Shown piece after piece: positions 7,962 through 53,300 of a stretch of 64,000 bases of DNA. The notes under the pieces are model-generated. The model made no database searches. It worked only from the letters and a program-made list of their open reading frames with translations, and was not told where the DNA came from. Source of the stretch: Ceratobasidium sp. AG-K (lineage: Eukaryota > Basidiomycota > Agaricomycetes > Cantharellales > Ceratobasidiaceae); contig JAWNGF010000011.1 of the NCBI GenBank assembly GCA_037039685.1, forward strand, positions 682,001 through 746,000, read 5' to 3'. Every line of letters begins with the position of its first letter. The first letter of the stretch is position 1. The translations under genes were made by a program, and so were the position numbers.

Positions 7962-8054
7962 TACCACGCACGAGACTCGAACTCGCAGCCTTCGCCTATC
8001 GCTTACATTTGTAATGCATAGGAGGGCGACGCTCTACCATTGAGCCAACGCGGC
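7962..8054 (-). tRNA. tRNA-Arg (anticodon CCU) with a 21-base intron
   Basis: Read on the minus strand: acceptor GCCGCGU pairs with GCGUGGU, the D stem is GCUC/GAGC, the anticodon stem is UCGCC/GGCGA, and the T arm has the loop UUCGAGU. The anticodon loop is CUCCUA plus A, with anticodon CCU at 8022-8020. The intron is at 8018-7998, directly after base 37, the canonical eukaryotic position. A run of six T follows the 3' end (plus-strand A run near 7945-7950), which serves as the Pol III terminator. Confidence 0.9.
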
Positions 8055-35381: not shown

Positions 35382-36776
35382 GCTGAAACTAGAGTAGGCG
35401 ATAAGATGAAGATGAAGTTGAAGTTGAATGAGTAGCTGGATGTGTAATTGGGAGGTGAGCATCCGGTTGTGGCGGATTTATATGCGCTCAAGACCGCAGT
35501 GCTATAGTCGGGGCTGCGTATCTAGCCTGTTCAAACGGCATCCCGCAGTTGCTCGATTGGGCATAATATTCTCATGAATTGGCCCGTTATGGTAAAGTGT
35601 ACCAATTCGCCCCCATTCAACGATATGAGCCTAGGCAGCGACTTCACTGGCAATTCTCCTAGCCGAAGTGCTCATATATTTGTTTGAAACGATAGTGATG
35701 TTACTATGCCTCCTCGAACATCACAAGACACGGATACTCGAATATCCAACTCCGCAGCAGTCGAGATTGTGGCGTACATGACTTATATCAGATACAATTA
35801 TTGGGTCTCGAAGGCGTATACTTTATTGGTTTTGAATACCTACGAGGGGAAGTATACTAGTAGATATCATCCGCAAGTGTGCAACCATGTCGTGCCACTT
35901 ATCTCCGCCATATAAACGTATTGGCGGATATTTTTTGTGACTCGATAGTTCCTTGCGACATCGGAACACCGAACCAGCCCGCGCATAGTCATACTCGGAA
36001 AGTTGGATGGTCGTAAACTTATTTCAAAACTCTACTCTACACCAGTAGCCTTGGCATCCTTGATCAGAGTCCAACCCAATGGCGTTCAACATGCGTGAGC
36101 TCCGGAATTTGGATTCTACGAACATATTGCCGGTAGAGACTGCTAATATTCGCTCCGTGCAACGAGCGCAGTATATCAAAATGTTGCACGTTGGAGGCAC
36201 GACATTAGCAACCATTTTGGCTACCCACCATATGCGGGCGTGGACAAGCCTGCCGTGACGGCAAGCCCCATATGTTGGTGCTGCGGCGGACTCTACATAC
36301 TTTAATCAGTTTGGTAACCAAGTGGTTCTATTTGCGGTGGGCTCCAAGGAAAGGTTCCACATTGCGACAAGTTTCGTCATATAAGGGGTACAAGGCCAGA
36401 AACCCTATCATAGCGAAATGCCTGGTTATATGCGTTGTAACTATGACGAAAACGGGTATGGGAGTGAGATAATATGTGTCTTCAGTCTGAAGAAACATGT
36501 GGTATCGATTGCATGGCATGTGGTCGGGTTTTCCTGAAATGCGCAACTATGCGTGCCCCCTCCCCCCGGACTTGACAGTGCCCCATCGCAGCGCCCGGGT
36601 ACTTGATCTATGCTGTCGAAAGGTGAGGCAGAGGGGGAAATGTGCTTAAAACGGGGGTTCAACATGACTTGGTGGGCGAAAACTCTCCCAAACCTTCTGG
36701 AGGCAGAAAATCACTTCTCAATCGATTTTCAGCGTTTCTGCATCGATTTCCTTGCTGTAAAAGGGCAGCAAAAAGG
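35382..36776. other. intergenic, left flank of the putative integrated element
   Basis: No gene supported. The last 20 bases contain gggcagcaaaaagg, which on the minus strand is a T5 run directly after the tRNA-Thr 3' fragment. Confidence 0.45.
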
Positions 36777-36807
36777 ATTCCCACTGCCTGACTCGAACAA
36801 GCGGCCT
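36777..36807 (-). repeat. displaced 3' end of a tRNA-Thr gene (candidate att site)
   Basis: On the minus strand it covers the variable region, T arm (GCTTG, loop TTCGAGT, CAGGC), the acceptor 3' strand AGTGGGA and the discriminator A. It differs from 46919-46949 only at 36791-36792. Five T follow on the minus strand. No 5' half of the tRNA is present to the right. Confidence 0.8.
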
Positions 36808-36811
36808 TGAA

Positions 36812-36878
36812 GGGTGTCGGCAGGAGGGGGTCGGGGGGCCGAGGAACGAGGCCTCCCGACCCCCTCCTGCCGACACCC
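36812..36878. repeat. GC-rich palindrome at the left end of the element
   Basis: Arms 36812-36835 and 36855-36878 are perfect 24-base reverse complements. Inner bases extend the stem to about 29 pairs around the loop GAGGAACGA. The core GGGGGCCGAGGAACGAGGCC recurs at 36921-36940, and CCTCGGACCCAGACT occurs at 36882-36896 and 36990-37004. The palindrome begins five bases inside the tRNA fragment. Confidence 0.85.
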
Positions 36879-38515
36879 GACCCTCGGACCCAGACTAGCA
36901 TAGGGTGCGGCGGGGCAGAGGGGGGCCGAGGAACGAGGCCGCCCGGAGCCCCAGCGCGCACCCGCCCCCTCTAGGACTTGCTCGGCGAACCTCGGACCCA
37001 GACTGCCGAGGCTGGACTGCACGGCGACTTGACGACTATACATGCATGCATGCACAGCCTATGCATGCACGTATAGCCGCCTAGTTTGTCGCTCGCTGCA
37101 CCCGACCCCGTCGCATAGCCGCCCAAGTCACGTGACAACCCATCTCCATGGCTCGACCCAGGCCTCGACCTTTGTTTTGATCAGACGCCTTTTGACCGTT
37201 CTCGCGCCCTCTTGCCAGACGTTTCTGCCTAGCCTCTCGTCGTTTTCGCCTGGAGCGTTTGTTGGATCCATCGTGTGCGCCAAGTGTCCCACGGAATCCC
37301 TAGGCGAGTCCAATCTATCTGGGTAGACTGCTCACCGAGATGGTTCCTCGCCAGTCGCGACTATAGGCCATGGCCCACATTGCGCGGCCCTTGCAGGTGG
37401 GTCCACCTGTGCGTGTTTGCTTGTGCCCCGATTGTCATTCTCGGTCGGCCATTACCCGTCGACTGTTTACCTAGAATTTCCCGGCCGCCTCGATTGCCTG
37501 CTCAAACGTCCCGGCGAGTCGGCTAGTCCTTGCCCCGCACCGTCGTATACCAGGCATGTCGCCTTGGCCAGACGATCCGTCGAGATTCATTTTCCCTCGA
37601 GCTCCATGTTTTCCGGTCGCGACAGGCGTCAAGTCGCTCGGGTCCCTCGTACACATGAGCCACTCTGCGCAGATGGTTCCGTACCAAAACAGCGACCTTC
37701 TTGTCGTGCTTGACCCTCGAGGCGCGGTTGCACACCCACCTGCGTCGGGATCCCGCCATCCAACGACATCCCCCGTGATGTGGGCTCAGGCTAGGGCGGT
37801 TTACACAGGCTCAACCAAAGCACCGTTCCGGGGTTCGTTGGCAGTCTTTTTCGCCGACACACCCGACGATTTCCGACTCGAATTACCGTATCATTGATCA
37901 TCCCCTGCCCACGACAAAAACCCCCGCCCTACAAGGACCGTTTCGACCCATGCCTACTTTCTAGTTCCTCTTCCAGAGGTGCTCAAATCGAGATTGCTAC
38001 TCGACGTGTGCGCCTTGCCCCACCCGCGTTGTCCGTGGTCCTAGATGCCCGCAGAGTTTTCCCGGGCGCGATTTCTCGGTTCCCGCTCTTCTTCCTCTGG
38101 TAGTTTGCCCCCAAAACGTCAACCCGCCCGAATCCACGTGTCCCCTCGCAAAAACGTGCCCGCCGCCCGAGACTAGTAGCAGCCCAACAGGACCACCGAT
38201 TATTTATGCTCGGCGACAATCCCATGCATGTCCCACACGATCGTCAAGGACCAGGCCGTCTCGTTCCATGCAATCCTTTGCTGCGGGCCTCTGGATCTGC
38301 GACGGCCTCGAACAATCGGGTTGCAAGACTGCCGGGACTGGGATCTGATGGACAATCTACCCTCGCCGCGACGTTTCCCGCACGAGTTGCATCGAGACCC
38401 AACTCGTGCATTGCTTTGGCTACTTGGCGTGTCATCCGCACCTGTATCCAACTTGAAAAGGGGGCAAATGTATTTACAAGACAAAAATCACATTGTACTC
38501 GCATACATTCACGCA
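36879..38515. other. GC-rich leader region of the element, no supported gene
   Basis: Contains the palindrome core repeat, a GTCACGTGAC site near 37127-37136 that precedes an ATG at 37148 by 12 bases, and several frames without recognisable content. It could hold a decayed gene. Confidence 0.4.
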
Positions 38516-38525
38516 TCACATGACC
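38516..38525 (+). promoter_or_regulatory. shared promoter motif TCACATGACC, gene C1
   Basis: Lies 70 bases before the C1 start codon. The same ten bases precede C2 and C3 at similar distances and are followed in each by a (G)TC-x-GGG stretch. Confidence 0.55.
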
Positions 38526-38585
38526 CACCCCAAAAGTCAGGGCGAGACAAACAAACGCGCCCGTCCAAGACCTCTACCGCAAGCC

Positions 38586-40013
38586 ATGGCGGTATGTATC
38601 CTTGAGCTCTTGGGGATGACATTAACTTTTTTTTTTTCTAGCAATCTGCCAATAGCACCACTCCCAAAGCCAAGGGAAACGCTGGTAAGCGAGCGATCGC
38701 AGACGGTCAAGTGCTTACTTGCTCCAGTCCCCACGCCTCCCAAGTCTTTTCGTCAACGCAACAGGCTCCGAGGTATGCCATGTACAAATAACCTACAGCC
38801 GGCTCACCCGCCTAGTTCTCGACAGCGACGACGAGGAAGCAAGCCTACCCAGCCCCACCTGCAACCAACCAGGCAAGTGCTCTGGTGCGTGTCTGGGCGA
38901 ATCCTCACCTCTTGCTAGCATCCGCACCCCCCAAAACAGGTACGTGCCGCTCCTATCACCTTTTTTGACTAACCCAGACAAAAAAGCCGCAGGTATGACC
39001 GCATACATTCGTTCCCACCACGCACTCATCCGTGTAGATGTCCCGAGCAGCGACGATGAAAAAGAGGCAAGTCGCAAGTCCCGTTTGAACCACAACTGAC
39101 GGTATTCTAGGCGGACACGGGCATGTCCACTCTAATCCACACGTTTGTCCGCTCATCTCTTGATACACAGACTCGAGACCTCGCACATACACCCGCAGTG
39201 TCCCTCGACCCCATCCACGCAAAAAAGTCCAAGGTATGACCGCATACATTCCTCTACCATGAGCTCACCAGTATAGCCAGACGGAGACGGGGACCAAGGT
39301 ATGACGGCACACATGTCTTGACATGGCGCTCATTTGCCCCAGACGATCACGTATCGGATAGTGACCAAGGGAAAGCGGTACGTTTCGAGTCTTGTTCAAA
39401 CTATTGCTAAACATACCCTAGGTCAACCAAGGCATGTTCACTCGCGGCCTTTTCTATTTATTCCAACGTCGCTCGATAGCATCCCGATCCAAACGCAAGG
39501 GACCTAGTACGTACTTTTTTGCATTTCCTTTTCCCCAACTGACAGGCCGCAGCATTCAAGCAGGGCAAGACCATACGAGGTGATTCGAGCCTGTCTGTAT
39601 GAAATCGTGCCAACACCATCGTAGCTCCAACCCTCATTAGCGGGGTTGAAAAAATATCGCTCGCCGTCATGGCCAAGCACAAGGCCAAGCTCGAAGAGGG
39701 CAGCCAGACGCTCTTGTCCTTGCTGGCCGAATCACAACTCGAGCAGGACAAGGCCGCCGATTTCAAAAAGGATGCAGAACACTTTCAAAAGTTTCTTGCG
39801 CTCGACGTCCGCATGAAGACCTCGGTTTTGCGAGAACAGTTTCGCCAAAAGCAAGCCGACAGGGAGAGCGAAAAGGTGCGCACGCTCCAGTTGGAAATCA
39901 AGCAAATGCGCCTCAAGGCAGACAGTCTGGACCTGGAGATCTCCAACCTCAAAGAGGAGATTCTCAAGCTGAGCGAGGAGGAGGAGGAGGATGTGGGCGA
40001 GGCGGAAGATTGA
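38586..40013 (+). CDS. C1: coiled-coil protein of the element, small-exon gene
   Basis: The first exon is just ATGGCG (38586-38591), then 38642-38684, 38728-38772, several very short exons, and a terminal exon 39625-40013. The early exons encode a Pro/Lys/Arg stretch (TPPKSFRQRNRLR). Next come acidic repeats (LDSDDEE, DVPSSDDEKE) in separate exons. The terminal exon encodes an uninterrupted helical coiled coil with FRQKQADRESEKVR and an acidic tail. C2 and C3 have the same plan and an alignable terminal exon. I do not recognise the family. Basic N-terminus plus coiled coil suggests a nuclear, self-associating protein, but that is a guess. The order of the middle exons (38816-39620) is uncertain. 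Confidence 0.6.
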
Positions 40014-40195
40014 CTGTTGTTTCGTTATTCTTTTATGTTATGTCTAAATGTGGAATTCAAACGTCGATGCGCACACATTCACTGATGATCCCCTCTGCCG
40101 GATACGATCCAAGCCGCGATTACTATTCGAGCCCCATATACATCTAGGCAAACTCTATACACATTGGGTGCATCCTAACATTCAGCTGTACATTG

Positions 40196-40205
40196 TCACA
40201 TGACC
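40196..40205 (+). promoter_or_regulatory. shared promoter motif TCACATGACC, gene C2
   Basis: Sits 67 bases before the C2 start codon and is identical to the motif before C1 and C3. Confidence 0.55.
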
Positions 40206-40262
40206 ATTTGTCAGGGCCCAAGGCGACGGATCGCCACTTGTCCGCCACCTGCACTTTGCGCC

Positions 40263-41219
40263 ATGCCCGTACGTAGCCCCCTGCCTCGAAGATCCCACAC
40301 TGACCGTTTTGCAGCCCAAACAAGCAAACAAAAAGACTGGCAAGAAAACGACTGGCAAGTGACTGGCCGTGATCAAGCGCATGCTTACTTGCCATAGGTC
40401 CTACACCCCCCAAATCCACTCGCAAAGGCAAAAAAGCCCAAGGTATGGTTGGTTCCACTCTTCTGGCACAGGCTTATCCGTCTAGTCCCCGAGAGCGATC
40501 AAGACGAGCGAGTGGTACGTCTGCGTTTTCTAAATGTGGACCTGCACTAACCATACCCTTCAGATTGACCAGTCAGGCAAGCGCGTGTTTTTCCCGACCT
40601 TTTATATTCTAAACTCGAACAGGTGACGAGGGTACGCGCTCTTTTGACCAGTTTATCCCGTCTCACACTCGATAGCATCGGGACCCGGAAGCAAGAAAAG
40701 TACGTACGCTGGTTTTTTTCTCTTTCCTACTCATGCGGCGTTCAAAGCAGGCAAACCAGGTGAGTGGGTCGGGCCTGTCTGGACGGCGCCAACCTCTCTG
40801 CAGTTCCGACTCTCGACGAGGCAATCGACTGCCTTTCTCTGGCCGCTCTCGCCAACCGCACTGCCAAGCTAGAAGTAGACCGCATGGACATTGCCATTGT
40901 ACTGGCCCAAGTGCGGGTCGAAGAGGACAAGACCGCAACGTTTACCACAGAGATGGAGCAATACACTGCTATTCTACAAATCGAGGCCCGCATGCAATCC
41001 AGTGCCGCACTCGAGCGCTTTCGTCAGCAGCGGGCAGATAGGGCTACTGCCAGGATCCTCGAGGCTGAATTGGAAGCCGAACAAATGCGCGTCAGCGTCA
41101 AGTCGTTTGAGATCAAGGTTCTCAAGACCAAGCGGGAGGCCCTCAAGATGGGCAAAAAGTGGGACGAGGACAAGGAAGATGCGGACGTTTGGAATGCAAT
41201 AGCAGAGCTGGATGATTGA
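40263..41219 (+). CDS. C2: coiled-coil protein of the element, small-exon gene
   Basis: The first exon is ATGCCC, followed by a Lys-rich exon (KKTGKKTGK), an exon encoding TPPKSTRKGKKAQ, an acidic exon VPESDQDERV, exons as short as about 13 bases, and the terminal exon 40804-41219. That exon encodes a long coiled coil containing RMDIAIVLAQ, ALERFRQQRADRATAR and LEAEQMRVSVKSFEIKVLKTKRE, and an acidic end. Its terminal exon begins in the same phase as those of C1 and C3. Function unknown; see C1. Exact middle splice sites between about 40450 and 40803 are not settled. Confidence 0.6.
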
Positions 41220-41526
41220 CAACGTGTTTCAGCTGTGGTTGTCTGTATTATTCTATGCCCAAGGCTGGATCCATTCTCGAGACCAAGCTTGCTGATACTC
41301 AACAACTGAGACACGCACTCGCCCATGACCAGGACCGTTCTGCCTGGTTCATTTGGGTTGGCCAAGTCACACGGACTCAAACGAGATAGCATACATGCAC
41401 ATGAACGAGGTGTATTCAGACGTCGCAGCGACCGGTGCGCTTGATCACATGACCAACCCAACTGTCGGGGTCCCAGCCACAAGTCGATCTCGCCCGCCAC
41501 CACACCCCCAGCACACAAACACAGCC
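41220..41526 (+). promoter_or_regulatory. C2-C3 spacer with shared motif at 41445-41454
   Basis: The motif TCACATGACC is 82 bases before the C3 start codon. Otherwise no gene is seen in this 307-base spacer. Confidence 0.5.
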
Positions 41527-42705
41527 ATGGCGGTATGTACATCTTGCCTGGCATGCATTGGGCTTGACCCCTTTCTAGCCAAAACGTCCTGCCAAAAAAA
41601 CAGAAGCCCCCAAGGCTGCCAAAAAGGCCCGGGTTACTGGTAAGCCGTTCGCCGCCAACGGAGCGAAAACTTATCGGCATAGCTCCTGCACCGCCCTCTC
41701 CCCCCAAATCCACTCGCAAAAGGCCCCAAGGTATGACCATCAGCGTTCTTTTCCCACGTGCTCATGCTCCCAGTGCCCGATACCGAGTCCGAGTCCGAGC
41801 AAGACGACGATCACGGTGAGCACGCATGTACGGGTAGCCGAACCACACTCATCCTCGTAGAAGAATATGCTCCAGAAAGCGATCAAGAGGAACCGGTAAG
41901 TCTTGAGCATTGCTTGAACCCCACTGATTGTGTTTCAAGGTCGACAAACCAGGCACGTTTATCGTCCACCTTTCTTGGCGAGTCTAACGCAACCTGATAG
42001 CGACGAAATCTCAAAGGCAAAAGAGAGGTATATATTCACTGGATTCACGTCACTTTTACCGACAATCTTGTCTAGGCAACAAAGTCCAAGGTACGGACGC
42101 ATACATTTGTCTGGCTCGACCTCATCCTCGCAGACCTTGTGTCTAGCAGCGACGAGGCCATAGCGACCAAACTGGCGCTCGAGAAACCCTGTACGTCTGC
42201 CCGTGTGCGTCTCTGCTCCTACTGACCCTTTGGCAGTGGACAACGGTAAGAATACCGAGCTCGTTTGGATCACGCCAACACCATCACAGATCCACCGGCT
42301 GAAAAACTGTCGACTGTCGACCAGGCCAAAAAGGTCGAGTTTGACCAGGGTCGCATGGACATTGTCATCTTGCTGGCCAAAACGCGACTCGAAAATGCTA
42401 CCACTGCACGGTTGAACCAAGAAACAGCGCGCGACACCACGATTCAAAAAATGGCGCTCGAATTGCAGACACCAGCCGAACGCGAGCGATTTCTCCAGGA
42501 GCGGGCCAACAAGGAGGGGACCAAGGTTCGCAAAGCCAGGTCGGAAACCAAATCGCTGGAACTGCACATGAGTTCACTTCGTGGCGATCTGGTGAGCGCC
42601 CAAAAGGGGTACCACAAGGTGACCAAGGCACAGGCCAAGGGCAAGGAGGAGACCGAGGCAAAGGAAAAGCGCGCATTGATTGAACAGTACCATGCACTGG
42701 CCTAG
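41527..42705 (+). CDS. C3: coiled-coil protein of the element, small-exon gene
   Basis: The first exon is ATGGCG, then an exon encoding KRPAKKTEAPKAAKKARVT (nuclear-signal-like), one encoding PAPPSPPKSTRKRPQ, and acidic exons (VPDTESESEQDDDH, then APESDQEEP). Several tiny exons follow, and a terminal exon 42290-42705 contains GRMDIVILLAKTRLE and ERERFLQERANKEGTKVR. It ends with a Lys/Glu-rich helix (KAQAKGKEETEAKEKR) and TAG. It is homologous to C1 and C2 along its length, and the shared exon phases argue for tandem duplication. Function unknown. Middle splice sites between about 41900 and 42289 are uncertain. Confidence 0.6.
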
Positions 42706-42840
42706 TTCTCCTGTTTCGCGTATGATTACCATGTGCCATTCCCGTTGTACTCGGCGTTATGTCTATATGTGGTGCAGCCTCGTTTGTCCCGATCGTGTGA
42801 TAAAAACACAAGCGTGGTAGCCACTTGCACCCATCCCACC

Positions 42841-45800
42841 ATGTCAATGTTCAACCAGCCTCTCAAGGTCAATGCGGCGGGGCACCCCACGCTGTTTGAC
42901 CATTCTTTTCTAGCAGCCCTTCGGACAGCTAAACCATCCGACTTTGAAGCCCCACCCCCTCCTAGTCCTGAACCAGAGGATGAGCCAGACGAACGCCCTG
43001 ACCAGTTCTATGCCGGTGGAATTCAAGACGGGAATATGATGGGGGTTGAATTTATGCGTCATCTATACAGCACGGCGGGCGGTAACTTGAGCAAGCAAAA
43101 GCGATGGATGCAAGTAATTGAACAGATTGCCCAGTCGAAATGTACATCAGTGACGCCCACAATCAACAAACGACGACGCAGTCTCGAGGCTCGGTGGAAC
43201 ATTTACATAAACTACATGTTCCCCAAACTTTTATTTCCCCAGCAGTATTGGCTCGAGTCGACTGTCGTACCCAACTGGGAGCCATTCTTCCTTGTCCTCG
43301 TGAGTACGGTCATGCATAGCTTCAGTTGTGCTGATGTTTTTGCAGGTTAAAAAATCCCGAGGTCATAGTGGTGTCGAGGGGAACGTTATCCGATCCACCA
43401 CGGTCGAGCAATGGGGGGTCACATTCTTGTGGCTCATTGGTCAAAAAATGACGGATGAAGCGGGCGAAACAACCGGCACCAAAATCCTGACAGGAGGACT
43501 ATGGCAGAAGATGAAGGACCGGATATCTTGGAGTAGGTCATACCGTATCTCGGGACGCGAGCTAATGGTCTTGCAGTGTCCCGCGAGCTCGAGCTAGCCC
43601 GTCATCCCAAGGAAAAGGTATTCATTGGCCGACCGGAACTCTTGCTCATGATCCGTCACGGTTTTGCCGCATCCAAGGGGAGCGCAGGGAAACGGCTGGT
43701 ACACCAGCAAATGGTGGTTCTCTTGAACCTCGTGTTTCATTGTGGAGTGCGAATGGGTTCGCTCGGCTGGTCAAACAAAGAGTACAAGGAGCTGGGATTT
43801 GCAAGTCTTTTCTCGTTTTTTAAGCGCCAGACTCTGACATTGTGCAGTATGCCAAGCTCGAGGACCTGACGATCGAAAATGAAGGCGACGTGGGTGAATG
43901 TCTATTCAGTGTCACCCTTGACATCAAGTACAGAAAGGTGGGCTATATGCACATTCCTCACGCAGTTGTTCATACTTTACCAGGGCTTCAACATGACCGT
44001 GGATGCTGGACCCCCCACAAGCTTCAAGATGGATCCAGTGACCAAAGTCCACAATCTGTTGTTTGACGCACCAACGCAAATGGTCATTTTTCTATTCATG
44101 CGCGGCGCACTAGAGGGGTGTGAAGTAGGTCAATCATTTCTACCCGCATCCGTCTAATATCTTCTAGTCGTTACAAGACGTTATCAAGTATCCATTCAAA
44201 CAGTTCAAGATCAAGGGCGAAATGAAGAAGCACCCATTGTGAGTTGACGTTTCATCTGGAGCACTTGCTCAACCCTTTTAGATTCCTGGAACGAACTTTT
44301 GGGGGAAAGAACCTTGGTACCGGACCTGCGAGTGCCCCGGGCCTCACGTACTCGGTCCGCGCTTCGGGTGAAGCAGTGGACATTCCAGATGTCACCGGGC
44401 ACACCATTCGCCATGAAAGCGGTCATCGAGTGGGTAGCTAAAAGTATTTGACTACTGCTAACGAACGTTAGGTGGCAATGGTCATGGGAGTCGAGGTGGC
44501 TCAAATGTACTTGGCCCATACCGAGGGCCGGACGACGTTTAATATACACTACGACTACAATACCCTCAACCTTCCGGTGGTTGCTATTGCCCTTGGAGAG
44601 CTCGATCACACGGCGCCCCTCGCAAATAGGGTGTGTCTGTCTGTTGGCTACTCACCACGTACTCACGTCCACTAGATGGCACTCAAGCGCCATTCAAAGG
44701 GCAGGCGGTCGGCTCAGGCGCTGTTGCTCCAAATGCCAAAGCGACTGGCGCTTGAAGCCAATCAGCCAGAAGAGCAGGAGCAGCCAGGGCCCCAGCAAGC
44801 CGAGTGTTCTAATGCAGGCGCCCGAACAAAGCGAAACATCACAAAGCTTACCCCAGAGGAAAAAGCCCAGGCAGAGGCAAGTTTTTCCCTGTGTACTTGA
44901 AGCGAGTGCTCATGACGCGACAGCGAGACCCAACAGTCGTCGATCTTGACCGTCAACTTGCCGCGCTTTGGGATCGATGGGACGTGTTGATGCCCACTGA
45001 AGCAACGGGATTTGGTCGACGACAACCCAAGTTTATCGACAAGGCATACGCCAAGTGGGCCAACGACCCCATATTCCAGCAAAATAGAGTGGCTCTCGAG
45101 GAGGTGGGCTTATTTGTGCACCGTGAATCTTTTCTCACTTCTTTCCAGCTACATGAAAATATCAAGACCCTCTCAGAGCGCCGAATCCGCGCCTTGGAAA
45201 ATGCCAAGCGGCCCATTCGAAGTGCCAAACAAAAGTCCAAAAAGTTTGACAAGAGCAAGGTGACGGCCAGGGATATGAAAGCGGCCGACAAGCAAATGGA
45301 AGGACTGGTGTATTCGGCGAAAAACCTGCCAAGTCTAACCTTGGGATTGTCGGTAAGTTTGTTCAAAATCATATGATCAACATTAACCGCAGGTCAGATA
45401 CTGGGTGGCGAGGATGTGAGAAAGGTGGGTACACACAGTGTCGTGTGAGCGTTACCCATACAAGTTGCCTAGCCGGGGTTCGGAAGCGGCTTGCTGACCG
45501 AGGCATGCCGGAAAGCATTGCGCGATCCCCTGCTGGTCAAAAAACTTGAAGAAGATCGAGCCCGTGAAAAGACTGAACAGGCACGGAAAGATGCCGAGCT
45601 CGACAAACTGGGAGAGCAGCAAGGCGACGACGATGAAGACATCTGGTTTGAGGGTGAATCCGAGGCCCAGGGTCAAGATGGCGAACCGGCGGCGGTTGAA
45701 ACTGACTGGGTACAGCCGGCAGAGCCAGCAGAGGGCAATCGGTTCAAGGACGTCGAGGAGCTGGAGGTTTTTGATTCAGAGCTAAGAGAAACCAAGATCG

Positions 45801-46724
45801 AGATGATGGAGGCAACCATATGGCCATTAGTCGAATCCAAGGCGGAGCAAATCGTCGTCAAAGTATGTTTCTCACCAAGTATGGTCCCGAGTCTGAGTCG
45901 TCCTAGGCCTACAACGGCAAATGGCCGTGCCTGCTTTGCTTACAGATCCCCCTGGAAATCAAGGCCAAGACACGAGGATCAAGGACCCACGGGCTGTTTG
46001 ATATCAAGGCCAACCTCACGAGGCATCTGTAAGTGCGTCGAGTCCACCTCGGTACTCTGTCTGACTGTTGTAGTGATTCGCATTCTCCATGGTTCAACCT
46101 CATCGGAGCCATGCTCACCGACAAGGACTCGGAGTTTCAGTGCCCATCACACAGTTGTGAACACACGTAAGTTCCTGAACTTGCCTTGTCGCCGCCCTAA
46201 CTTGGTCTAGTACAACCACCATCCCCGACATGCAAGAGCATTGCATTACCGAGTGTGTCGACCGCCATGTATTCCAGTCCTTGAAGAACGAACATGACAA
46301 CATCCCTTCCCATGGGACGACCAAGGCCCGAGCCGCTAGGAATCAATTATATGCACTCGAGAATGACGGCTTGCCAATGCCCCCACTCCAGCGCGGCGAG
46401 CTGGAGCGCGTGCATAACATGAGCGAGCGCGACTTTAAGACGTTGGAGGGCGACATCGATGCAAGTTATTTGGCTCGTAACTGGGCAGTATGCTCACATT
46501 TCTTTCAGAGGCCCGAGGGAGAGCTCATGGTATCCGTGCCAGCGATTCGCGAGTTCCTCGACGAAGGTCTCGCCGCGATCCCGGACGATAATCTTATCAA
46601 GGATTCGCGAGCGTCCGAGTCTGTGTATCAGGTTTCTCGGCGAGCTATTACTGACGACTTGCACCACGCGATGAACGAGCTCTTTAAAGAGGCCGACGAC
46701 ATGATCAAGGGTGCAAATGAGTAA
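42841..46724 (+). CDS. tyrosine recombinase, DUF3435/Starship captain-like, with C-terminal zinc fingers
   Basis: 17 exons: 42841-43299, 43346-43532, 43577-43800, 43848-43937, 43984-44124, 44168-44238, 44282-44429, 44472-44630, 44676-44876, 44924-45103, 45149-45352, 45398-45424, 45473-45862, 45907-46028, 46074-46166, 46211-46487, 46509-46724. All phases agree, giving 1062 residues with no stops. Catalytic set: R274 in FHCGVRMGSLG, H431 and R434 in GHTIRHESGHR, H456 in LAHTEG, and Y467 (or Y469) in NIHYDY. The R434 to H456 distance of 22 equals that of lambda integrase. The N-terminal 200 residues would be the core-binding domain. A coiled-coil/acidic region (about 560-820) follows, then C835/C838 with H867/H871 and a second C891/C896 cluster with H908. 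This order (recombinase, RDP-x-x-x-x-L helices, zinc fingers) is what I recall for DUF3435 proteins. Introns at 43801 and 44877 begin GC. Confidence 0.82.
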
Positions 46725-46919
46725 ATGTAGACTGTCAAATATATGTATTTTTTCCACAACGTCCTCCTGGCATTGGTGGCCGTTTGAAAACCGAGGAGTT
46801 CAGCCCAAAGTACCGTGTTCACAGAGTTCCGACCACCGCGTTGACATGGTACAAGTCGTTGGAAACCCGTGGTAATACAATACTGGGTGATACTTGTGAT
46901 CAAAATGGACTAAAAAATA

Positions 46920-47002
46920 TTCCCACTGCCTGGATCGAACAAGCGGCCTCGTCATTGCACCCAGGCTACTAGTGACGCGCTCTACCACTGAGCTAAGCGG
47001 GA
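46920..47002 (-). tRNA. tRNA-Thr (anticodon AGU) with an 11-base intron
   Basis: Minus strand: acceptor TCCCGCT pairs with AGTGGGA, the D arm is GCTC/GAGC, the anticodon stem is CGTCA/TGACG, and the loop CTAGTA + A carries anticodon AGT, interrupted after base 37 by the intron GCCTGGGTGCA. The T arm is GCTTG, loop TTCGATC, CAGGC. A run of six T follows the 3' end. Its 3' 31 bases recur at 36777-36807, so it is the likely integration site of the recombinase element. Confidence 0.9.
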
Positions 47003-50361: not shown

Positions 50362-53300
50362 TCAACTGGATAGATCTGTTTGGTAATTATTTGGAGATTG
50401 AGTAGCGTCCTCGCGTAGGAGCGGAAGACGGATCTCGGGACGCGGCGTGGGGGGGAGCAGCTCGATCGGAGTCTCGATCGCGGGCTTGGAAGCAGTGGGA
50501 TTGGCTCTACGTGCTTGGGCTAAGGCTTCTGCGTATTCTGCAAGCGGGGTTCCGGGTCGTGGGACGAAAGGGCGGAGGAGGCGGGTGTGGGTGGCTTCGG
50601 AAAACTTCTTCCCGTGGAGGTCTTCAAGCGTGTAGGAATTGAGTGCTTTCGAGACGACCCGGAGTGGGCCGGACCAGCGAGGTACCAACTTTCGAGCGGC
50701 TGCGTGCGTCTCATCCCATCTCGCGTCGTACCGCTGGACTAGGTCCCCGGGCTTGAAGTTGGCGATTCGCGCGTGCTTGTCGAAGGACTTTCTTCTGCGC
50801 TCTGCGTGCTCGAGTGCTAAAGCATAGGCATCCTGACGGAGCGAGTACGTGAGTGCCATATTGACCTCCACCTCGAGCAACGAGGGTTCTCGAATGGTAG
50901 CACTTAGCTCTGCCCGCCTTTCAGCGCTGATTTGGCCCGTCAAGAGTTCACGTGGAGTGTACGATAGAGAGGGGAGCGTTCGATCGTTGAGTTGCGCGAC
51001 GGCGGTGGCTAGGTGCTTGGGCCACGCTCCCGGTGTCGTTGCTGGATCGGCATCCTCCTCGGGTGATTCTCCAACCGTTGGTGTGCACAGGCGTTTCAAC
51101 CGGCCAATGAGAAGCTTGTTGTAACCTTCCACGAGGCCGTTCGTCCAGGGAGCATATGCGGGTGTCTTGATAATGGATACCCCCCGATCCTTGGCCCAGG
51201 TTCTGACTTCTTCGCAGTCGAAATGCGAACCTCCGTCCGCCATGAACGTTCGCGGAGTGAGGATCATGTCCGCAACTCGTGAGAGCAGGTCCACCGTTGT
51301 TTTTCCAGTGCCAGGGCCTCTGAGTGGGAACGCAAATGCGAATCTGCTGTATGCATCGACTACCACTAGGACGTTCTTGAATCCTCCGTGTCCGACGGGC
51401 AGCGACAAATAGTCTCCGACTAGGAGGTCGAATGGGCGAGACCTTGTGATTGGTTGCATTTGAGCGGACAGGAGTCGTGGGCCAAAGTTCTTGCACCTGG
51501 GGCACGATGTGATTGCTTCGATCGTGTCCTTCCGTAGGTCCGGCCAGAAGAACCGCTGTTGCAAGGCGAGGATCGTCATGTCGCGGCCGAAGTGTCCTCC
51601 TGCTGAGTGTACAGCCAGTGCCATCTCTTTTGCTTCGTTACGTGGAATACACTCAACTTTGCCAGAATGCTTTGTCCTTTTCCCGCCGACCAGCCAGAGT
51701 TTCCCGCCTTCGACCAAGAATCCCTCTGCCCGGTGTGCTTGCCGCTTTCGCATTCGTCGCTCCTCGGCTGACTCGTCTTCAGGTTCGCCTGTGTCGAAGA
51801 GCAGGTGGTTAAGGACCGAAGAGAAGTACGGGTCGTCTATGAACCGAGTAAGGAGGGCACGCGAAGACTCGTCGTCGACGAGGAGGTACACATCGTTCAG
51901 AAGGCCTTTTGCTGACTCCCAACCGGGGTCCACCGTGGAGTCCTGTCCCGCCGGGGTGTTGTCATCTGGCCTAGACTCGTAGATCCTTGAGAGCGCATCA
52001 CCCACTCGGTTTTCTGCTCCCGGTTTGTGCCTCACCGCTCGAATGTCCCGCGCAACAATGGACTCGCGCCAGCGTTCGTGGGTCGAATTGAGCTTGTTGT
52101 TCCCGAGGAGGTCGGCGAGTGCTTTGCAGTCTGTTTCTATCTCAATTGGTTGGCCGTATATGATGCTGTCGAACTCGTCAAGGCTGTACTTTAGGGCTGC
52201 GAACTCGAGGAGGAACGGGATGTATCGTTCCTCCGTGCGTGAGGTTCGTTTGGATGCGAAGGCCACTGGATACATCACCTTGTGCGTTAGCCCTTTCTCG
52301 TCCTGGACTTCCCATTCCTGTGAGAGGACGGCTCCGAAGCCATATTTCGAGCCATCTGTTGTGACGATGAATGGTCGCCCGTCATACACCGGCGCCCGAG
52401 TGAGATTGTCAGCTGTCAGAATGGTCTTGAGTTTGGCAAATGCATGTCGAGCTGTGTTGTCGAGTACGATCCGGGTCTCCTTGAGTGCTCTCTTGTACTC
52501 CTGGTTGCTTGCGGGTGTTTTAACTTGCGGTGAACGGATATCGCGCGTAAGGTCTGTGAGTGGCTGTGCGATCCTGGCAAAGTCGAATATCTTGGTACGA
52601 TACGAGCCCACACACCCTAGAAAGCTCATTATTTCCAGTGCCGTTCTCGGTTCCGGCCAGTCAAGGATGGCTTTGACTTTTGACAGATCTGGTCGTATCC
52701 CTTCCGCGGAGCATCGTGCACCAGCAAACTTGGCTTCAGACATGAAAAGAACGGTTTTAGCTGGAGCCAGCGAGAGCCCGTGTGAACGGCACTTAGCGAA
52801 TATTGCCTTGAGCTTCAGCATCCCGTCTTCGAATTCATCACAGGCCGATGCCACATCATCCATCCAGACTTCGAGGTCCTTTCCTATTAGATCGTGGAAG
52901 GCAGCCGCCAGTGTCTCACAGAAAGTGGTGGGCGCACCAGTAAGTCCGAATGGCATTCTGAGGTATACGTAGTAGCCCCTGCCATCCACATGGAACCCAG
53001 TATACGGGACGCTCTCCGGGGCGACTGGTATTGCATTGAACCCCGCCATGAAGTCCATGACTGAAACCCATCGGTGTCCAGCGATTTTACGTTGCATTGC
53101 TGCAAGGTCTCCCATCGGGAACGGGCGGAGCTGTGTCACACGATTTACCGATGCAAAATTGTGAACTAATCGGAACTTAGCTTCGGGCGCTGATGTATTC
53201 TCCACTGGGTCCTCGGTCTCCGCTTCCGGCCACATAATTGGCAGCCCATATTTGAGGCACTGATCGTTGGCCATTTTTCGGAGTGCTGCAATGCTGGGTA

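Follow-up and report, generated by a model that had tools for sequence, protein, structure and literature searches.

Can an integrative DNA element enter the 3' end of a transfer RNA (tRNA) gene in a fungal chromosome and leave that gene whole? The question is raised by a stretch of 64,000 nucleotides from Ceratobasidium sp. AG-K (C11:682001-746000, referred to here as the window), which belongs to a genome of 53.6 Mb in 17 contigs. In the window, an intact tRNA-Thr(AGU) gene and a displaced copy of its 3' end bracket a tyrosine recombinase (YR) gene and three accessory genes. Bacterial and archaeal integrases classically use the 3' ends of tRNA genes as attachment sites. In the prokaryotic layout, an element has the intact tRNA gene at one end, and its far end carries the displaced 3' fragment. 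The best reading of the locus, with a probability of about 0.86, is a basidiomycete integrative DNA element, specific for its site, that recombines into the 3' end of tRNA-Thr(AGU) and restores the gene. At the sequence level, the data show the anatomy, an intact recombinase reading frame, two insertions independent of each other, and bare tRNA fragments that go together with the element.

The tRNA gene, its displaced 3' end and a second insertion

The intact, intron-bearing tRNA-Thr(AGU) gene is on the minus strand at 46920-47002 (Rfam RF00005, 50.0 bits) and forms the right end of the element. The displaced 3' end, also on the minus strand, is at 36777-36807 and consists of a 14-nt core and T-arm sequence with TTCGAGT. 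It is a copy of the last 31 bases of the tRNA gene. Compared with 46919-46949, it is on the same strand and identical at 29 of 31 positions, and no other 31-mer on either strand of the window exceeds 19/31. The spacing between the two copies is 10,142 bp. T-runs follow both copies of the tRNA 3' end. The one downstream of the displaced fragment (36770-36776, minus strand) reads AAAAAGG on the plus strand and could be the original RNA polymerase III (Pol III) terminator of the tRNA gene. The one that now follows the intact gene (46912-46917) is part of the right terminal region of the element (46698-46918, plus strand). The earlier note had described this repeat and the bracketing tRNA gene, and both were confirmed. 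It had also seen in them the arrangement of a tRNA-targeted integrase, which gained support from a second, independent insertion on contig C3.

This insertion was located by a genome search with the left and right ends, which led to a 793-bp element at C3:1369298-1370129. It also lies between an intact tRNA-Thr(AGU) gene and a displaced 3' fragment (C3:1370106), and this fragment has the same two differences from the tRNA as the window fragment. The left subterminal region (window 36884-37419, plus strand) is 89.7% identical between the two copies over 544 columns, and the right terminal region is 95.6% identical over 206 bp. The C3 copy is internally deleted; it is without a counterpart of about window 37420-46697 and hence without the recombinase. 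The outer flanks, compared over 2.8 kb to the left and 3 kb to the right of the window element, have no similarity at E < 0.3. Of the window flanks adjoining the element (477 and 498 bp), the left one recurs in a segmental duplication, and no other match to either was found in the genome. Since the C3 copy has the same ends, a different tRNA-Thr gene, and unrelated flanks, it is, on sequence comparison, a second insertion that is independent of the window copy. Its displaced fragment is followed by AAAAAGA, again in an unrelated flank. If the left flank was once the DNA downstream of the tRNA gene, each displaced fragment should be followed by a T-run, as it is. For a site anywhere in the window, the preceding 9 nt contain an A5 run with a frequency of 0.0056, and such a run is present at both loci; this test was picked after the run had been noticed.

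A pattern for the tRNA 3' end (24 bases, up to 3 mismatches) has at least eight matches in the 53.6 Mb, and its reversed control has none. These represent five tRNA-Thr genes (C2, C3, C9 twice, and C11) and three bare fragments, all three of which are at left ends of the element. The two independent insertions occupy two of the five genes, and the two C9 genes and the C2 gene are unoccupied. One bare fragment (C11:1057290) is inside an inverted segmental duplication of 39.6 kb on the same contig, in which window 2312-41926 corresponds to C11 about 1052.2-1091.8 kb at 99.3% identity. The duplication continues with a 93% stretch (window 42139-42628) and then stops within accessory gene 3 of the element. 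The duplicate has no match to the recombinase or to tRNA-Thr. The copy at C11:1057044 was rejected as a second insertion, as it is part of this duplication, and it was not counted as independent. The earlier note had named scattered tRNA-Thr fragments as a finding that would speak against an element. None were found beyond the element ends, and scatter from tRNA-derived short interspersed nuclear elements (SINEs) was rejected. The note had also treated a palindrome as the left end. This near-perfect 67-bp palindrome (36812-36878, 97% complementary in a repeat search) is present in the window copy and absent from the C3 copy, and it was dropped as a defining end.

The identity of the tRNA gene is likely Thr(AGU). 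ARAGORN labels the window gene as Ala, either agc or tgc with an 11-nt intron, and the C3 gene is also labeled Ala when introns are allowed. For the three free paralogues, the same program gives two Thr(agt), with the intron after position 37, and one intronless Leu. The exons of the window gene, read by eye, equal those of the two unoccupied C9 genes. Because of this equality and the Thr(agt) calls for two of three free paralogues, the Ala label was set aside for both occupied genes and is read as a probable misplacement of the intron. At window 7962-8054 (minus strand, RF00005, 50.5 bits) there is a further tRNA gene whose anticodon region contains an insert; it is not in the ARAGORN list.

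The proposed crossover core, CAGGCAGTGGGAAT, has its left copy at 36777-36790 and its right copy at 46919-46932. The two are identical and are both read on the minus strand. On one side the core is bounded by the shared TTCGAGT/TTCGATC difference, on the other by the start of divergence between the flanks. In the orientation of the tRNA, the displaced ends have the sequence ...GCTTGTTCGAGT-CAGGCAGTGGGAAT. The T-run comes next, and after it host DNA that differs between the two independent loci. The intact genes have TTCGATC before the same core (TTCGAAC on C2). Most simply, the shared TTCGAGT would be part of the element, and in that case the crossover would be 3' of TTCGAGT, in the 14-nt core. 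A crossover in CAGGCAGTGGGAAT, within the 31-nt shared tract, is thus the most economical placement. Alternatively, it may have taken place in the T-loop, with two mismatches.

A mechanism can be proposed from this anatomy. A circular form, as suggested by the class of the enzyme, would be joined by the tyrosine recombinase to the 3' end of tRNA-Thr(AGU). The element would bring its own copy of the tRNA 3' end, and this would recombine with the chromosomal one, presumably by strand exchange. The host 5' part of the gene would then be completed by the 3' end and T-run of the element, and the tRNA would remain intact. The original 3' end and terminator would be displaced 10.1 kb away, and the new T-run after the tRNA gene would be supplied by the right end of the element. 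The element may be active at present.

The recombinase and the accessory genes

The recombinase gene (42841-46724, plus strand) encodes 1069 amino acids in 16 exons, separated by 15 spliceosomal introns, in the preferred gene model. This model has no internal stop. The gene reads towards the tRNA gene, and its stop codon is 195 bp from the tRNA 3' end. The catalytic set is complete, with all six residues of R...K...HxxR...H...Y present (R274, K320, H431, R434, H456, and Y467). In an alignment of 11 rows, these columns are conserved in every row with letters: R 9/9, K 11/11, H 11/11, R 11/11, H 10/10, and Y 10/10. C2H2-like and C2HC-like motifs are found at the C-terminus. The predicted structure of a relative, P0005, has the YR fold. 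By its catalytic residues and the predicted fold of this relative, the window protein is identified as a tyrosine recombinase. In its source, P0005 (Ceratobasidium sp. AG-Ba) has the name "myosin-2 heavy chain, non muscle", yet the YR catalytic set is present.

Ten relatives were found, six by a profile search of a protein database and four by a region search, and all are from Ceratobasidium and Rhizoctonia. These searches score only word-sharing candidates of similar length, and the family may be wider. One of seven family members scanned has a PHROG integrase match (E 0.0014), a weak link to prokaryotic integrases. A PDB sequence search with the first 512 residues gave no matches at E up to 1, and one with the family profile gave seven weak matches (best E 0.091), none of which are recombinases. 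With the window protein and P0006 as queries for a second YR paralogue in the genome, only the window locus was matched. A genome-wide scan for PF11917 gave no match, and as its control matched nowhere either, it is no measure of absence. Among viral contigs searched for relatives, 31 stretches fit a pattern and none were confirmed.

Three accessory genes precede the recombinase on the plus strand, at 38586-40013, 40263-41219, and 41527-42705. Each has a coiled-coil last exon (39603-40013, 40764-41219, and 42250-42705, respectively), and their upstream exons were placed by eye only. The last exons are homologous by blastp (gene 1 and gene 2, E 1.9e-29; gene 3 and gene 1, E 1.3e-14; gene 3 and gene 2, E 6.6e-16), and the genes are three co-directional paralogues. 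They were not found in the genome outside the element and its segmental duplicate; for gene 2, all six genome matches are in one or the other. A Pfam scan of one forward frame of the left part gave no families. The coiled-coil proteins could possibly be regulators or architectural partners of the recombinase. The earlier note had claimed a full-length recombinase with three co-directional accessory genes, ending beside the tRNA 3' end, and the 16-exon model, the homologous last exons, and the position of the stop codon bear this out. About 4 kb from the element, Integrase_H2C2 and rve domains were observed at 51154-51648 (minus strand); they probably belong to a long terminal repeat (LTR) retrotransposon.

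Other explanations and points against the element

Several observations weigh against the proposed element. In the sequence of this one genome, it has two independent copies, of which only one is full-length, and the deleted one on C3 may have lost its interior after it had inserted. Mean confidence is low in both predicted structures, at 51.8 and 57.5 on the predicted local distance difference test (pLDDT). The first of these, for P0002, was left out of the fold search; in the other, pLDDT falls below 50 across the segment that holds the last catalytic His and Tyr. A degenerate left-end relic of the same element family is found at C2:351591-352324 (80-87% identity, split by about 320 bp), and no core, tRNA, or recombinase is present in the 18 kb examined around it. 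The introns of the two occupied tRNA genes are alike (9/11 by eye) and unlike those of the free genes. This likeness may come from shared ancestry of the two occupied genes or, less likely, from a tRNA that travels with the element.

The latter would make the complete tRNA-Thr gene the right end of the element, with insertion at a site other than a tRNA gene. It fits with the introns, and the similarity between the window and C3 copies covers the tRNA gene completely and ends 4 nt past it. However, tRNA-Thr exons are alike in any case (88.9% over 99 bases between the window gene and the free C9 genes). A carried tRNA gene also does not explain the T-run directly after the tRNA 3' end in both left flanks, and no target-site duplication is seen by eye at the outer edges. 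This explanation appears very unlikely, although it is the least unlikely of those considered. Eukaryotic retroelements and DDE elements directed to tRNA genes are known (PMC5006619, PMC8869645), and a transposon of the TRE, Ty1/Ty3, or Dada type could have left the 31-bp repeat as a target duplication. However, no Pfam family was found at E up to 0.1 in six unspliced frames of 36900-46799, a scan that missed the recombinase too and so is informative only for domains that are well conserved. Unlike a fresh duplication, the repeats show the same two differences at each locus, and the largest gene is that of a tyrosine recombinase. Such a transposon is thus very improbable.

A Starship-type element that sits at a tRNA gene by chance is slightly less improbable than such a transposon. 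Weak DUF3435 similarity is found in three of the 11 family members (the window protein, 9.2 bits; P0002, 20.1; P0010, 18.4) and in none of the other eight. All of these scores are below the cut-off of 25.8 bits, which is another point against the proposed element, and the recombinase can be called distantly DUF3435-like only at a sub-threshold level. Against a Starship, the captain gene is described as coming first in such elements (PMC11623301), whereas here the recombinase gene comes last and is directed at the boundary. The 10.1 kb of the element is below the quoted range of 15-700 kb (PMC12134995), and the target is common to two independent insertions. A chance repeat, an assembly error, or an ordinary gene cluster can hardly be credited. 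One left-end copy does lie in the 39.6-kb duplication and inflates the apparent copy number, but the independent C3 copy has both ends, and no fragment was found elsewhere. Integration into the tRNA 3' end with restoration of the gene is preferred.

Relation to known mobile elements

Starships are elements of Pezizomycotina with a YR captain that carries DUF3435 and is the first gene (PMC11623301). Their quoted targets are other transposable elements, AT-rich regions, and 5S ribosomal DNA (rDNA) (PMC12134995). Like Starships, the present element is a fungal DNA element with accessory genes that would be moved by a YR. It differs in that its relatives are so far in basidiomycetes only, its length is 10,142 bp, its YR gene is last and directed outward, and its target appears to be tRNA-Thr with gene restoration. 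DUF3435 above the cut-off, a YR gene in first position, and a size of 15-700 kb are all absent here.

Cryptons are also YR DNA transposons of fungi, a basidiomycete among them. A circular intermediate has been proposed for them, and they have GCR1_C and terminal direct repeats of 4 or 6 bp (PMC3212892). The main text of that paper does not contain the word tRNA. The present element differs from them in its 31-nt end repeat with a 14-nt core and its zinc-finger-like motifs. GCR1_C had no match in the spliced recombinase at E up to 1, which by itself is a weak test. For the YR retrotransposons DIRS and Ngaro, no Pfam family of reverse transcriptase or RNase H was found in the six-frame scan described above, and no DDE transposase was found in six-frame scans of the same region or in the spliced recombinase.

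YR-associated integration in eukaryotes has been described at telomere repeats and 28S rDNA, for endogenous nimaviruses and cryptophyte polinton-like viruses, some of which have a C2H2 domain or multi-exon YR genes (PMC10871703, PMC12220804). For the cryptophyte viruses, tRNA genes were sought and none were reported within 1 kb of integration sites (PMC12220804). They share a eukaryotic YR and specific target sequences with the present case, and are unlike it as elements and in their targets. Dada DNA transposons have a DDE transposase and insert at the A box or anticodon region of tRNA genes (PMC8869645). TRE, Ty1, and Ty3 are tRNA-targeting retrotransposons with reverse transcriptase (PMC5006619). 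All of these are eukaryotic and choose tRNA genes, as here, but with DDE enzymes or reverse transcriptase instead of a YR. To our knowledge, none of them rebuilds the tRNA 3' end. In the literature consulted, eukaryotic tRNA-seeking elements employ reverse transcriptase or DDE enzymes and not YRs. No report of a eukaryotic YR element at tRNA 3' ends was found in non-exhaustive listings of the open-licence PMC literature.

On its sequence features, the element fails the tested definitions of Starships, Cryptons, YR retrotransposons, and Dada. As it also appears to work like a prokaryotic island in a eukaryote, it would be new as a YR element of a fungus that integrates at a tRNA 3' end and restores the gene. 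The chances are about even that it represents an undescribed class of eukaryotic integrative element, in which a YR family of Ceratobasidiaceae integrates at tRNA 3' ends, rebuilds the gene, and brings its own Pol III terminator. Such elements may travel as circles, use several tRNA targets, have dedicated coiled-coil partners, and act in trans to move deleted derivatives like the C3 copy. If a fungal YR does rebuild the tRNA gene, YR elements with accessory genes are no longer confined to the Starships of Pezizomycotina, and a recombinase is at hand whose natural target in a eukaryotic chromosome is defined.

The closest likeness is to bacterial and archaeal integrative elements, which use tRNA 3' ends as attB and reconstitute the tRNA gene after integration (PMC8371274). 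The present element differs from them in its eukaryotic host, 15 spliceosomal introns, zinc-finger-like motifs, and only weak PHROG link. It is like them in its intact tRNA gene with a displaced 3' fragment in the same orientation, here at two loci, in its YR gene beside the tRNA gene, and in the apparent restoration of that gene. If the reading is true, the same solution of rebuilding the tRNA arose or survived in eukaryotes, and the element would correspond, in a eukaryote, to the genomic islands of bacteria and archaea.
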